Assembly (NCBI RefSeq): GCF_007990505.1
Contig: NZ_AP019822.1
Coordinates: 310,001 to 374,000 of the forward strand
Source of the DNA: Pseudoleptotrichia goodfellowii
GTDB lineage: Bacteria > Fusobacteriota > Fusobacteriia > Fusobacteriales > Leptotrichiaceae
Direction: 5' to 3'
DNA: 64,000 nt
Position numbers and translations under genes: made by a program. Shown piece after piece: positions 33,761 through 40,379 of this stretch (its first letter is position 1; the number at the start of each line of letters is the position of its first letter). Under the pieces are notes generated by a model. That model was given only the letters and a program-made list of their open reading frames with translations. It was not told the origin of the DNA and did no database searches.

Positions 33761-34009
33761 GTGGGAGAAAAATCAGAGATAATACAAAAAGTAGACAGTA
33801 TCAATAATCCGCAGCATTACAAACTTAACGGATTGGATATAGAAAGTATTGATGTTGTGAGATCAGTTCTTGGAAAAGAGAAATTCATCGGATTTTGCAA
33901 AGGAAATATACTGAAATACTTAATCCGGGAAGAGAACAAGAACGGATTGGAAGATATAAAAAAAGCCAGAAAATATACGGACTGGCTAATAAAGGAAATG
34001 GAGGGGTAA
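33761..34009 (+). CDS. DUF3310 family protein
   Basis: 82 residues from GTG 33761 (AGGAGG upstream). INNPQHYKLNGLDIESIDVV, FCKGNILKYLIREENKNGLEDIKKARKYTDWL is the DUF3310 pattern (dPxHY...iE.id.....f..GN..KYl.Ra.~KnG..DlkKA..Yl). A common phage protein linked to nucleotide metabolism; role not established. Confidence 0.88.
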   Translation: MGEKSEIIQKVDSINNPQHYKLNGLDIESIDVVRSVLGKEKFIGFCKGNILKYLIREENKNGLEDIKKARKYTDWLIKEMEG

Positions 34010-34011
34010 AG

Positions 34012-34788
34012 ATGAATGAATTGAAAACGATAGAAAAAGAGAATTTTAAAATTTTTAACAAAGAGAATTTAGGAAGCGTAAGAACGGTATTAGTGGACGG
34101 CGAAGTTTGGTTCTGTATAAAAGATGTATGCAATATTTTAGGATTAACAAATCCTACTATGGTAGCTCAAAGATTGGACATGGACGAACAGGCTAAGTTT
34201 GACTTAGGGTTATTAAATAAAGAGCTTACGAACTTTGCAAATGAAAGCGGTCTTTATACTTTGATTTTGAGAAGTGATAAACCTGAAGCCAAGACCTTCA
34301 GAAAATGGATAACTTCGGAAGTGATACCGTCAATCCGTAAAACAGGAAACTACTCAATTCAAAATCCTGTTGAAGCTTTGCTTGAAAATCCTGTAAAGCT
34401 TGGAGAAATGCTGATTGAATACGGAAAAGCAAAAGAACAATTAAAAATACAAGCTCCTAAGGTACAAGCGTATGAAAATTTGTATGAAAGCGATGCCGTT
34501 ATGGATATTGGAGAAGTATCTAAAACAATAAATTTCAAGGGAATTGGAAGGAATAACTTATTTGCAATTTTAAGACAACAAGGAATATTGAACTCTAATA
34601 ACGATCCATATCAGGAATATGTAAATAGAGGATATTTTAAATTAATCCCGACAAATTATGTTGATAATTTCGGGAATAGGAAGATGAAAACAGTCGTTTA
34701 TATGAAAGGGATAGAAGCGATTACAAGGTTATTGCTGAAATTAGGATATACAAAAATAAATCCTAACTATAGTGTGGCAATAAACTAA
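34012..34788 (+). CDS. Phage antirepressor, BRO-N plus KilA-C domains
   Basis: 258 residues from ATG 34012 (GGAGGGG upstream). The BRO-N domain includes VRTVLVDGEVWFCIKDVCNILGL and SGLYTLILRSDKPEAKTFRKWITSEVIPSIRKTG. The KilA-C (ANT) domain includes AYENLYESDAVMDIGEVSKTIN and GRNNLFAILRQQGIL. Such proteins bind and neutralise repressors or act as DNA-binding regulators. A longer frame from 33895 overlaps the DUF3310 gene and is not used. Confidence 0.9.
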   Translation: MNELKTIEKENFKIFNKENLGSVRTVLVDGEVWFCIKDVCNILGLTNPTMVAQRLDMDEQAKFDLGLLNKELTNFANESGLYTLILRSDKPEAKTFRKWITSEVIPSIRKTGNYSIQNPVEALLENPVKLGEMLIEYGKAKEQLKIQAPKVQAYENLYESDAVMDIGEVSKTINFKGIGRNNLFAILRQQGILNSNNDPYQEYVNRGYFKLIPTNYVDNFGNRKMKTVVYMKGIEAITRLLLKLGYTKINPNYSVAIN

Positions 34789-34883: not shown

Positions 34884-35798
34884 ATGAGTTTTAAGGAACA
34901 TAATAACCGAATAAAAGCAAAGAATTTCGCTGAATATATCACGGGAGAAGAGTTAAGAAAATATGTAGCTTCCAAAGTTAAAAAATATGTCGGAGAAAAT
35001 CCAACGATATTTGACGGAGCTTTAGGAAGCGGACAGCTTGAACAGTACTGCAATCCTGAAAAAATCTATGGTGTCGAAATTCAAGCAGAAAGTTGTGAGG
35101 CAGCAAAAGAGAATTATTCCGAAATTGACATTGAAAATAAAAGTTTTTTCAATTTCACGAGAGATAATTTTGTAGCTGATTGCGTGATTATGAATCCGCC
35201 GTTTTCGATTAAATTCAAAGATTTGTCAGAGGAAGAACAAGAAAATATCAGGAATGAATTTAGCTGGAAAAAGAGCGGAGTTGTCGACGATATATTTGTG
35301 CTTAAATCACTCAAATATACGAAAAAATACGGCTTCTACATACTATTTCCTGGTGTCGGATACAGAAGCAGTGAGAAAAAGTTTCGGGAAATTATTGGAA
35401 ACAGTCTGCAGGAACTTAACATGATAGAAAACGCTTTTGAAGACACAGGAATATCAGTTTTATTTATTGTTATTGATAAGGAAAAAACAGACAATAAAGT
35501 TACCAAAGAGTTGTATGATTGTAAAACTAAAAGTCTTCTTAAAATTGAAGAAACGGATCTCGAAGAAGACTTTCGTTGGCAACCGACACAGTTGGAAAAA
35601 GAAACAGAAGAAATTAATATAGAAGAGCTTAAAGATGACTTAAAACGGTCATTTTTAGGGCATATTGAAAATAGCTTAGATTTAGAATTATTTCTATTTA
35701 GAACGCTTGGAGAAGGAGAATTTCTAAGCTATTTAGCAGCAATAAAAGAAATTGTACGAAAGTACGAAAGAAAATATCTGATAGGAGATGAAGAATGA
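34884..35798 (+). CDS. N6-adenine DNA methyltransferase
   Basis: 304 residues. Motif I: TIFDGALGSGQLEQYC (about 39-54); motif IV: CVIMNPPFSIKFKD (about 97-110). The C-terminal part is helical and acidic. The order motif I then NPPF fits gamma-class N6-adenine methylases of the HsdM type. It ends overlapping the next gene by 4 bases (ATGA), so the two proteins are translationally coupled. It could protect phage DNA or form a pair with the nuclease-like partner. Confidence 0.85.
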   Translation: MSFKEHNNRIKAKNFAEYITGEELRKYVASKVKKYVGENPTIFDGALGSGQLEQYCNPEKIYGVEIQAESCEAAKENYSEIDIENKSFFNFTRDNFVADCVIMNPPFSIKFKDLSEEEQENIRNEFSWKKSGVVDDIFVLKSLKYTKKYGFYILFPGVGYRSSEKKFREIIGNSLQELNMIENAFEDTGISVLFIVIDKEKTDNKVTKELYDCKTKSLLKIEETDLEEDFRWQPTQLEKETEEINIEELKDDLKRSFLGHIENSLDLELFLFRTLGEGEFLSYLAAIKEIVRKYERKYLIGDEE

Positions 35799-36337
35799 AA
35801 GATATAGTAGAAATCTATAAAGAATGTGGCGATTTTCACGAATCAGTTAAGAGAAGTGGACTTACTCCACTTGTTGCTCACATAAAATTAATGAAAAGCG
35901 GTGTTTTGAAAATACAAGACAAAATAAAATATGCCAGTAGAGGTGGAAGATTAGGGGGACTGGCAGAGGAACTATTTCAAAAATTAGTTCCTGATGCTGT
36001 GGATGCTAATAAATATTGGCAAAAAAATAATCCTATTTACGATTTCATGTATAAAGGATTGACCATAGACGTCAAATATAGCAGCTATCATTCCCGAGGG
36101 AAGAAAACAAACTACTGGAATATACGGACAAAAGGGAAACAGAACATAACAGTAGCATTTTTAGAAAGAAAAAGTGGAGATGAATTGAAAAATCCTTACT
36201 GCTTATTAATCCCAAACGGCTTTATCGGGACCAAATGCGATACTCACGTATCTAAGAGTGGAGAATGGTTTCAAAACTTTAGAATAGAACTGGACGAACT
36301 ACAAAAATACTTAGATGAGTATGCGGAATTTGTTTAA
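35795..36337 (+). CDS. Possible PD-(D/E)XK nuclease with N-terminal helix-turn-helix
   Basis: 180 residues. The N-terminus IVEIYKECGDFHESVKRSGLTPLVAHIKLMKSGVL resembles a helix-turn-helix. The core PIYDFMYKGLTIDVKYSSYH (about 82-101) has the D...(I)DVK spacing of PD-(D/E)XK enzymes, with YWNIRTKGKQ and VAFLE strands after it. The gene overlaps the methyltransferase by 4 bases. It may be a restriction enzyme or a recombination nuclease; I infer a nuclease only from the motif. Confidence 0.6.
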   Translation: MKDIVEIYKECGDFHESVKRSGLTPLVAHIKLMKSGVLKIQDKIKYASRGGRLGGLAEELFQKLVPDAVDANKYWQKNNPIYDFMYKGLTIDVKYSSYHSRGKKTNYWNIRTKGKQNITVAFLERKSGDELKNPYCLLIPNGFIGTKCDTHVSKSGEWFQNFRIELDELQKYLDEYAEFV

Positions 36338-36346
36338 GGAGTAACT

Positions 36347-36898
36347 ATGAAAAGAAATTGGACATTAGGAGAAATAGAAGATTTAAGAATAATGATCGAA
36401 GTGGAAGGATTAAGTCACAGGGAAGCGGCAGAGGCACTTGGAAGAACAAAACAATCTGTTTGTCACAAAGCTAGGATATATAAATTTAAAACATCGTATT
36501 TTATGGATAAAAGAAAAAAGATAGAATTAAGAAACTTAGTTGAAAATTCAACTATTGATAAAAACACCATTTGTAAAAGATTGAAAATAACAAAAAGATC
36601 CTTAAATTATAGAATGGAATTGATGTATAAAACATGCAATTTAACAAATATAAGAAATAAAGGGTTATTTAAAAACAATGGTAAAAAATGGTCGCAGGAA
36701 GAAGACGATTTTATTTACAAAAATTATTATAAAATAGGAAGATTGAAAACAGCCAAAGCGTTAGGGAGAACTCTTGGAGCATTAAAAAAAAGAATGTTTG
36801 ATAACATAGATAAAAAATTGTTAGAAAAAGGTTTTTATACAAAAGGTTGGAACTTTAAAGAACGAACGAGAATATGGAAGGAAAGCAGGGATTTATGA
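36347..36898 (+). CDS. SANT/Myb-like double HTH protein
   Basis: 183 residues. Two similar DNA-binding-like units: WTLGEIEDLRIMIEVEGLSHREAAEALGRTKQSVCHKA (about 4-41) and WSQEEDDFIYKNYYKIGRLKTAKALGRTLGALKKRM (about 114-150). The gene at 41626 has the same second unit. A DNA-binding regulator is inferred; not a sigma factor by any motif I can see. Confidence 0.7.
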   Translation: MKRNWTLGEIEDLRIMIEVEGLSHREAAEALGRTKQSVCHKARIYKFKTSYFMDKRKKIELRNLVENSTIDKNTICKRLKITKRSLNYRMELMYKTCNLTNIRNKGLFKNNGKKWSQEEDDFIYKNYYKIGRLKTAKALGRTLGALKKRMFDNIDKKLLEKGFYTKGWNFKERTRIWKESRDL

Positions 36899-37065: not shown

Positions 37066-37866
37066 ATGGCCAAAAAATTAATAAATAAAAAGGGGAATTA
37101 TACAACAATACAAAACGAATTAATAAATGACAAAAGCATATCTTTAAAGGCTAAGGGAATATTGCTATATATGCTGTCAAAACCATATGACTGGAAATAT
37201 AATCCAAAAGAAATAGCAGCAAATTCAAAAGACGGATTAGATTCAGTATACAGCGGGTTAAAAGAACTTATTGAAGCGGGATATGTAAGCCGAAAGCGAT
37301 ATGCTGACGGTAGGGTAGATTATTATGTTTTTGAAGATAAAAGCGAAAATGACATTGAGGATTTTTCTTTAAAAGAAGAAAACCCAAATCGGGAAAACCC
37401 AAATCGGGAAAACCCAAATCGGGAAAACCCAAATCGGGATTTTCCCGACGTATACAAAAGAAAGAATACTACTAAAGAAAGAAATATACTAAATACTGAA
37501 TATAACAAAAAAGAAAATAAAAAAGAAAGAAACGAAATTGATGATTATATAAACGCTGCTCAAAAAAGTGAGGAGTATAAAAATCTACTTTTTGAGTTTG
37601 TAAAATATAGAAAAAAGATAAAATTATCTTTAAAAACTCCAGGACCTCTTAAGACATTGATTAATTTCTTTCCGACAGAAGAACTTTTAAAAGAAGCTTT
37701 GGAATATATGGATATGTATAACTGGAGGACAGCTGAACCACAATGGATAGAAAATAAAAAGCAAGGAGGAAACAATAATGGTGGAAAGCGTGCAGGATAT
37801 AGCAAAACGAATGGAAAACATTCGGAAAAACCAGACTACTCAACGGGATTTGAAGACTGGAACTAA
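37066..37866 (+). CDS. Replication initiator-like winged-helix protein with internal iterons
   Basis: 266 residues. The N-terminal winged-helix domain includes YTTIQNELINDKSISLKAKGILLYMLSKP and SVYSGLKELIEAGYVSRKRY. A linker carries four tandem ENPNR repeats (about 105-124), encoded by 15-bp DNA repeats. The C-terminal part (YKNLLFEFVKYRKKIKLSLK... TAEPQWIENK) looks DnaD-like. The helicase-loader gene overlaps its last 89 bases. The layout mirrors lambda O: an origin inside the initiator gene, followed by the loader. Confidence 0.78.
   Translation: MAKKLINKKGNYTTIQNELINDKSISLKAKGILLYMLSKPYDWKYNPKEIAANSKDGLDSVYSGLKELIEAGYVSRKRYADGRVDYYVFEDKSENDIEDFSLKEENPNRENPNRENPNRENPNRDFPDVYKRKNTTKERNILNTEYNKKENKKERNEIDDYINAAQKSEEYKNLLFEFVKYRKKIKLSLKTPGPLKTLINFFPTEELLKEALEYMDMYNWRTAEPQWIENKKQGGNNNGGKRAGYSKTNGKHSEKPDYSTGFEDWN
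37379..37438 (+). repeat. Four exact 15-bp direct repeats (iterons)
   Basis: Unit AAAACCCAAATCGGG, four perfect copies without spacers at 37379, 37394, 37409 and 37424. They encode ENPNR in the host gene. The 15-bp length is in phase with codons but not with the helix turn. Confidence 0.9.
37379..37540 (+). other. Probable prophage replication origin
   Basis: The iterons are followed by the inverted repeat TCGGGA-TTT-TCCCGA (37434-37448) and then about 90 bases that are almost only A/G with T (37450-37540), a purine-biased AT-rich stretch suited to unwinding. Order and setting (inside the initiator gene, before the loader gene) match the lambda origin. Confidence 0.65.
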
Positions 37867-38530
37867 TAATTATATGGCTGAAACTGTGGATTGGGATGAA
37901 GAAATAAGAAAACAAGAAACGAAAGAATACCAAAGACTTTCAAATATTTTGGAAGAAGAAAAACAAATAACTTTTAAAAAAGCTGATTGTAAAAATGATA
38001 CTGAAAAAAAACACAAAAAATCATTTGAAAATTTTTGCCGGAACTTTGAAGAAATAAAAGAAATCGGATTAGGCATTTTCATGTACGGCGAATGCGGAAC
38101 AGGAAAAAGTTACTACTCGGTTTGTATTATGAATGAACTCAATAAAGAATATAAAGTTTACCGAACAAGCCTATTTGATTTACTTGAAGAAATAAGACAG
38201 ACGTATAAAAAATATACGGATGCAACGGACGAGTATTTATTTAAAAGGTTAAAAAAGTCGGATCTTGTAATTTTTGATGACTTAGGAAATGAAATGATAA
38301 CAGATTGGGGAAAAGAAAAAATGTTTTTGATTTTTGAGTTTTTGTACAAAAATCGCGTTTCTTTTATCATAAATACTAACTTAGATAATAAACAGTTTCA
38401 AGAGTTTTTGAGAATCAATGGAAGTCCGAAGTTATTTGATAGAATCCGAGAACGTTGCAAAAGCTATAAATTTGATTGGGATAGCAGAAGAAAAGATTTG
38501 CATAAAGCGGATTTTGAAAGATTGTTTTAG
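37778..38530 (+). CDS. DnaC-like helicase loader ATPase
   Basis: 250 residues. Walker A GECGTGKSYYS (about 104-114), Walker B LVIFDDLGNE, sensor I FIINTNLDNKQF, and Arg-finger region RIRERCKSYKFD fit the DnaC/IstB AAA+ family. The N-terminal 80 or so residues are the helical helicase-contact part. It loads the host DnaB helicase at the phage origin. GGAGG and ATG 37778 lie inside the initiator gene, giving an 89-base overlap. Confidence 0.9.
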   Translation: MVESVQDIAKRMENIRKNQTTQRDLKTGTNNYMAETVDWDEEIRKQETKEYQRLSNILEEEKQITFKKADCKNDTEKKHKKSFENFCRNFEEIKEIGLGIFMYGECGTGKSYYSVCIMNELNKEYKVYRTSLFDLLEEIRQTYKKYTDATDEYLFKRLKKSDLVIFDDLGNEMITDWGKEKMFLIFEFLYKNRVSFIINTNLDNKQFQEFLRINGSPKLFDRIRERCKSYKFDWDSRRKDLHKADFERLF

Positions 38531-39629: not shown

Positions 39630-40379
39630 TTGCAAATATTTAAAAATGAAAAGATAGGACAGATAAGGGCTTTAAAAAAAGATAACGAAATTTATTTCGT
39701 AGGAAAAGATATTGCTGAAATTTTAGGGTATAAAGATACGTCGAAAGCAATAACAAGACATGTTGAAGAAGATGACCGTATGAAATGTCCTGTCGTCGAT
39801 AATATAGGAAGAGAACAGGAAACTTGGATAATAAATGAAAGTGGTTTTTATTCTTTAATAATTTCGAGCGAAATGAAAGAAGCGAAAGAGTTTAAAAAGT
39901 GGGTAACAAAAGATGTCTTGCCGAGTATCAGAAAACATGGAATGTACGCTACCGATGAGTTATTAGAAAATCCTGATTTGTTAATTCGAGTTGCTACAAA
40001 ATTAAAAGAAGAAAAAGAAAAAAATAAGCAACTGAAATTAGAACTTGCTTACAAATCTGAAATAATTGAGGGAGTAACAAATAATATTGATGTGTACAAG
40101 AAACAAGATATTTTAAATAGAGTTGTAAAGCACAAAGGAGCCAACTATAGAGAGCGTTGTGGAGAATTATACAAAGTCTACAGAGAAACACATCATGTAG
40201 ACTTGAAGGCGAGAAAAGAAGGCTACAATAAAACTCAAATCAGGAGCAGAGACAAGTGTAAAAGTGTTATTGAATATGCTGTTAAATTTGGACATATAGA
40301 TAATCTTTATAACATAGCTTTGAAAATGTATGAAACGGATATGAACGAAATTATAGAAAAAATAAGAGAGGTGGCTTAG
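39630..40379 (+). CDS. BRO-N antirepressor-like protein with ORF6C-like C-terminus
   Basis: 249 residues. BRO-N part: QIFKNEKIGQIRALKKDNEIYFVGKDIAEILGY and SGFYSLIISSEMKEAKEFKKWVTKDVLPSIRKHG. The C-terminal KKQDILNRVVKHKGANYRERCGELY resembles ORF6C. The usable start is TTG 39630, 12 bases after AAGGAGG. The better-spaced ATG at 39625 is out of frame and opens only a 10-codon reading frame. Homologues usually begin MNELQIF, so a small indel at the start is suspected. Confidence 0.82.
   Translation: MQIFKNEKIGQIRALKKDNEIYFVGKDIAEILGYKDTSKAITRHVEEDDRMKCPVVDNIGREQETWIINESGFYSLIISSEMKEAKEFKKWVTKDVLPSIRKHGMYATDELLENPDLLIRVATKLKEEKEKNKQLKLELAYKSEIIEGVTNNIDVYKKQDILNRVVKHKGANYRERCGELYKVYRETHHVDLKARKEGYNKTQIRSRDKCKSVIEYAVKFGHIDNLYNIALKMYETDMNEIIEKIREVA

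Follow-up and report, generated by a model that had tools for sequence, protein, structure and literature searches.

Origins of replication that lie within initiator genes are well established among phages, and a 2006 article by Weigel and Seitz is said to review them in general. In phage lambda, oriLambda lies within the initiator gene O and is made up of four iterons with an AT-rich, purine-rich tract 3' of them; gene O overlaps the loader gene P, and the O protein binds the AT-rich single strand of its own origin (PMC7466680). In phage 80alpha, ORF20 and ORF21 are sufficient for autonomous replication, and the origin is apparently embedded in ORF20 (PMC5499656); the GenBank record of 80alpha annotates a rep_origin within the initiator gene. 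The ORF20-ORF21 module, which is of the phi13/phiETA/phiNM1 type, contains 15/30-bp repeats in the linker region of the initiator gene, TACTAA 3' of these repeats, and then a DnaC-like loader gene. The rep gene of the Lactococcus phage TP901-1, which is labelled experimental in its record, is likewise an HTH_36 initiator gene with repeats, followed by CTACTAAATACTAATA; however, it is not directly followed by a DnaC-like gene, and Rep is annotated as DnaD-like. The pSK41-type RepA_N initiators have the origin in the center of rep and possess a DnaD-like winged-helix N-terminal domain (PMC5703833).

The window analyzed here is a stretch of 64,000 nucleotides from Pseudoleptotrichia goodfellowii, of which 10.8 kb is identical to the IMG/VR provirus 2506520045_000001. 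The phage genes around the replication module encode an integrase (20628), anti-repressors, a terminase (45315), a portal protein, a protease, a tail sheath, a tape measure, and a baseplate. Anti-repressor (Ant-type) genes are located on either side of the module (33895-34788 and 39630-40379). Just upstream of the module lie two overlapping genes (34884-36337 for the two), one of them DNA methyltransferase-like (phrog_6380) and the other of unknown family (phrog_13389), which could form a modification or restriction pair of the phage. The prophage itself may have lost its function. The replication module very probably contains a theta-type temperate-phage replication origin embedded in its initiator gene (37066-37866), with the following features:

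37066-37866, + strand: replication initiator gene (266 aa), with an N-terminal winged helix (HTH_36), a disordered linker, and a small helical C-terminal domain
37111-37350, + strand: region encoding the winged-helix DNA-binding domain (residues 16-95), which presumably binds the iterons
37379-37393, 37394-37408, 37409-37423, and 37424-37438, + strand: four exact 15-bp iterons AAAACCCAAATCGGG, presumed initiator binding sites
37434-37448, no strand assigned: imperfect palindrome TCGGGATTTTCCCGA (TCGGGA-TTT-TCCCGA), an inverted TCGGGAAAA repeat junction at the 3' edge of the array
37450-37540, + strand: AT-rich, purine-biased block (91 bp, 20% GC, 76% purine), presumed DNA unwinding element
37467-37475, + strand: first TACTAA-type element TACTACTAA, of a class kept in 58 of 85 relatives and 14 of 18 held-out phages
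37486-37497, + strand: second TACTAA-type element ATACTAAATACT, in another reading frame (ATA CTA AAT ACT)
37778-38530, + strand: DnaC/IstB-like AAA+ helicase loader gene (250 aa; phrog_50 with E 5e-43, phrog_3277 with 2e-31)

The first-pass annotation of this DNA had described four exact tandem 15-bp repeats, a TCGGGA/TCCCGA inverted repeat right after them, about 90 bp of purine-biased AT-rich DNA beyond it, and a winged-helix gene whose 3' end overlaps a DnaC-like loader gene, and each of these features was recovered. Exact matching and Tandem Repeats Finder both returned the array (37379-37438), which in the latter analysis is the best-scoring repeat of the window (37378-37439, 100% matches), and no further site with at most one mismatch to AAAACCCAAATCGGG was found in the 2.29-Mb genome. 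The GC content of the AT-rich block is in the lowest 4%, and its purine content in the top 1.1%, of 91-bp windows. The initiator and loader genes overlap by 89 bp. One copy of the iteron with two mismatches, AAAACTCAAATCAGG, is located at 40230-40244 within the second anti-repressor gene; it is probably a chance occurrence, a secondary initiator site being possible.

The initiator matches HTH_36 (PF13730) at E 1.2e-7, above the cut-off, which is its sole Pfam match in a scan to E 0.1, and it matches phrog_4707, phrog_678, and phrog_428, all of which are annotated as "replication initiation". AlphaFold2 predicted a good winged helix at approximately residues 16-90, with a pLDDT of about 87-96 over most of residues 16-95, and disorder (pLDDT <50) at residues 109-152; the repeat and AT-rich codons (residues 105-158) overlap this predicted disordered linker. 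A Foldseek search returned generic winged-helix matches only (E >0.001). Structures titled initiator or Rep-DNA complex, which we take to be pSK41 RepA, were among the best structure matches, with weak Z scores of 7-8 that were tied with those of unrelated winged helices. The RepA_N domain had no Pfam match in the window initiator and matched one distant relative (in A4) at 8e-10; pSK41 RepA_N is a plasmid initiator, unlike the phage initiator of the window. The loader matches PF01695 (2e-9) and, weakly, Bac_DnaA (1e-3), and in function it would correspond to lambda P and 80alpha ORF21.

Comparison between the window initiator and 80alpha ORF20 revealed 48.8% identity over residues 10-87 (78 residues, E 3e-14). 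As in 80alpha-type modules, HTH_36 domain homology is accompanied by linker iterons 3' of the domain and an immediately following DnaC/DnaI-like loader gene. The window module differs from that of 80alpha in that (i) the iterons have another sequence; (ii) the C-terminal part of the initiator is unrelated; and (iii) the host belongs to Fusobacteriota and has no detectable DnaD domain. By homology and layout, the window system is of the 80alpha/phiETA/TP901-1 type, in which the initiator gene contains the origin, and it would function like lambda O-P. The origin had earlier been termed lambda-like, which held for the layout (four iterons, a 3' AT-rich tract in the initiator gene, and an overlapping loader gene) and failed for the family: because the Pfam scan to E 0.1 gave no Phage_rep_O match in the window initiator and the iterons are 15 bp rather than 18 bp in length, the likeness to lambda is one of layout. 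However, phrog_678, which is described as "O-like", does match the window initiator (1.7e-16). Lambda further differs in the variable spacing of its iterons, and gene O has no exact TACTAA.

Copy-to-copy identity is weak evidence of an origin because tandem duplication also yields identical copies; an origin inferred from the identity among the four copies was set aside, and a cross-species comparison was used in its place. The closest independent relative, L009, comes from a genome of the same genus and has 72% protein identity to the window initiator. The four iterons are unchanged in L009 and in L028. At the codons with the same amino acid in the window and L009, the synonymous codons were identical at 19 of 19 positions in the repeats and at 21 of 23 in the AT-rich block (residues 125-158), that is to say, at 40 of 42 positions, compared with 87 of 135 (64%) in the rest of the gene (p about 2e-5, amino-acid-stratified permutation). 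The DNA is thus kept beyond what the protein needs, which is the pattern that had been anticipated for an origin. The repeat codons are rare in the host, with CGG accounting for 1.6% of Arg codons and CCA for 4.7% of Pro codons (52,746 codons from 12 x 20-kb genome samples). The palindrome of L009, TCGGGAAAATCCCGA, is the exact reverse complement of TCGGGATTTTCCCGA in the window, and the peptides encoded there differ, being RDFPD (DFP) in the window and RENPD (ENP) in L009.

The wider comparison set consists of 85 non-redundant relatives (<80% identity) from Fusobacteriota genomes, staphylococci, and IMG/VR, which are statistically non-independent despite the 80% cut; linker repeats beyond those of codon-order shuffles were found in 73 of them, with a period of 15 in 58 and of 30 in 6. 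By the same test, the other 12, several of which are from Fusobacteriales genomes, have no significant linker repeat, which counts against the origin reading. Iteron similarity tracks that of the DNA-binding domain, with a partial rank r of 0.35 (Mantel p 5e-4), and shows no correlation with the C-terminal domain (partial rank -0.02). Linkage accounts for part of this co-variation because the iterons and the DNA-binding domain are neighbors. The pattern is visible in natural chimeras. L029 shares its DNA-binding domain with the window (72%), and its iteron is related, but its C-terminus is not shared; L012 shares the C-terminus with the window (58%) and has another domain (27%) together with TGACA/TGTCA-type sites. 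The further chimeras L017, L022, and L023 have C-termini that are 92-94% alike, DNA-binding domains that are 62-74% identical, and different iterons.

In seven Streptococcus phages (L153, L155, L158, L161, L162, L163, and L165), the iteron array is located in non-coding DNA. The HTH gene of these phages stops 20-41 codons past the domain, and the stretch before the next gene contains the array together with TACTAA or a related element. Because the array and the element are non-coding, the presumed origin is freed from coding constraint in these phages. Their initiator is apparently split, with a short HTH_36 gene that is followed in 4 of the 7 by a DnaD-annotated gene.

The commonest linker 8-mer is AATACTAA, which is present in 40 of the 85 linkers, compared with 3 occurrences in the rest of the genes and 5.5 expected from codon shuffles. 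TACTAA was found in 58 of the 85 linkers, whereas dinucleotide shuffles gave 15.6 (at most 24); of its 60 anagrams, it is the top-ranked one in the linkers. Relative to the iteron cores, 114 copies are downstream, 3 are upstream, and 9 are between, and the orientation is one-sided (114 TACTAA versus 4 TTAGTA). Thr in the linker motif N-T-[NK] is encoded by ACT in 93% of cases, versus 37% in the remaining parts of the genes (p 8e-21). The hexamer was chosen on the 85-relative set and tested on 18 GenBank phages outside that set, of which phiNM1 and CNPH82 resemble staphylococcal sequences of the first set; in these 18, the copies before, in, and after the linker number 3, 28, and 3, respectively, with TACTAA in 14 of the 18. 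The seven Streptococcus phages are part of this GenBank set; the non-coding DNA that follows their HTH genes contains 16 copies, compared with 3.4 in shuffles, phiJH1301-1 alone of the seven has no TACTAA, and identical streptococcal elements stand 3' of quite different iterons. A 53-nt streptococcal element had no blastn match among plasmids, a negative that carries no weight because of the low-complexity filter. Two long variants of the element gave 31 exact matches in IMG/VR (2.9 million viral contigs), all of which are located 60-165 nt downstream of an HTH_36-type DNA-binding domain.

A strict rule of T at every third base, which is striking in 80alpha with 11 codons in a row, was rejected as not general. 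Up to 11 consecutive T-ending codons follow the iterons in 80alpha (L026 2471-3241), L034-L038, L152, and L156, and these staphylococcal codons (ACT ACT AAT AAT AAT AGT ACT ...) resemble a TnnT run. The literature covered, with subscription papers (TP901-1 and SPP1 origins) outside its scope, describes no TACTAA element at phage origins. TACTAA is possibly a new conserved origin element.

In Bacillus subtilis, DnaA and DnaD read opposite strands of CTACTATTACTTCTACTA at oriC, where the DnaA-trio and the DnaD recognition element (DRE) are likewise strand-oriented, of the CTA/TACT type, and beside the double-strand sites of the initiator (PMC10201434). Unlike B. subtilis oriC, the window element adjoins phage iterons without DnaA boxes, and its triplet spacing is not strict. 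The only exact DnaA box of the window, TTATCCACA, is located at 947, far from the array; the closest match to the array has one mismatch (36502-36510), none with at most one mismatch was found between 36510 and 40158, and the counts are near chance. In the window, no DnaA box adjoining contiguous DnaA-trio trinucleotides (3'-GAT-5' or TnnT) was found. At least two TnnT units are present on one strand (TACTACT at 37467, and TACT at 37487 and 37494), a feature that is weakly specific because the DNA is AT-rich. The DnaD domain PF07261 had no match in 33 genomes of the family, and the positive controls, B. subtilis and Lactococcus, were matched. Host DnaD was therefore rejected as the reader of TACTAA, being ruled out if the host has none. 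In lambda gene O (L149, from about 820), the AT-rich tract starts with GACACTATTACAAAAGAAAAAAG, which recalls the streptococcal-phage start CACTAATAAATACTAAC and CTACTATTAC of B. subtilis oriC; this is a single example.

Two other explanations of the array bear on whether the locus is an origin. The array may be a protein-level or slippage repeat, in which ENPNR forms a flexible linker, with recent tandem duplication as the source of the DNA identity. Such a duplication would leave identical copies, and because the linker is predicted to be disordered, changes in its length should be tolerated. However, the four copies are unchanged in L009, whose synonymous codon identity is 64% elsewhere in the gene, and the repeat codons are rare in the host. 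In addition, the constraint reaches into the non-repetitive AT-rich part, the palindrome keeps its DNA symmetry with an altered protein, and the streptococcal arrays are non-coding. We consider this explanation highly improbable; the codon constraint, the predicted disorder of the linker, and the non-coding streptococcal arrays instead argue for the earlier suggestion that the ENPNR repeat is a by-product of the DNA repeats.

The iterons might also be an operator for transcription of the initiator's own gene or the loader gene, with the origin located elsewhere. Winged-helix initiators often autoregulate, and the loader gene is downstream of the array. Against such an operator, the array is >300 bp within the gene, the AT-rich TACTAA element on its 3' side keeps its position and orientation, and the origin of the 80alpha homolog apparently sits in the corresponding gene (PMC5499656), which leaves it very unlikely as the whole explanation. 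The array could nevertheless serve as an autoregulatory operator also or instead. The reading of the iterons and the AT-rich stretch within the initiator gene as the prophage origin, which the first-pass annotation had put forward, is supported by the DNA constraint, the tendency of the iterons to co-vary with the DNA-binding domain, the non-coding streptococcal arrays, the prophage context, and the 80alpha homolog; like the anatomy of the locus and the position and orientation of TACTAA, the constraint and the co-variation are established by sequence comparison.

From the comparison, the AT-rich stretch adjoining the iterons further appears to be a conserved, oriented sequence signal, more than soft DNA. 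It might instead be generic soft DNA, in which TACTAA reflects the AT-rich codons of an Asn-Thr-Lys linker, and the origin claim would be unaffected. This would fit a host with ~30% GC, the single codon frame shared by 61 of 63 copies of AATACTAA, and lambda O, which has no exact TACTAA. By contrast, the ACT bias of the linker Thr codons, the first rank of TACTAA among its anagrams and its excess over shuffles in the 85 linkers, its concentration within the held-out linkers relative to either side, and its excess in the non-coding streptococcal DNA all argue against generic soft DNA, and we regard it as unlikely. As a tentative model, which may or may not hold in full, phages with HTH_36 initiators would combine swappable 15-bp iterons with a conserved, oriented TACTAA that is read single-stranded by a common factor (the initiator tail, the phage AAA+ loader, or host DnaA/DnaD). 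TACTAA would then be a counterpart of the DnaA-trio/DRE, and the two parts would dictate the in-gene ENPNR/NTKELNTKE linkers.

At the proposed origin, the winged helix of the initiator would bind the four 15-bp iterons plus the inverted half-site at their 3' edge, and the bound initiator complex would strain and open the adjacent AT-rich block. The TACTAA-type sequence may be read in single-stranded form and in one orientation by the C-terminus or linker of the initiator, the phage AAA+ loader, or host DnaA, and the DnaC-like loader from the overlapping gene would recruit the host replicative helicase. The probable replication origin of a Fusobacteriota prophage is thereby located by sequence, and the odd repeats in its initiator protein would be explained as the shadow of DNA sites. 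For a large class of phage origins, the comparison points to an "AT-rich region" that acts as a sequence-specific, oriented signal and persists as the iterons are swapped. Whether unwinding elements outside DnaA-dependent chromosomes hold specific single-strand information can thereby be tested in phages such as 80alpha and TP901-1.
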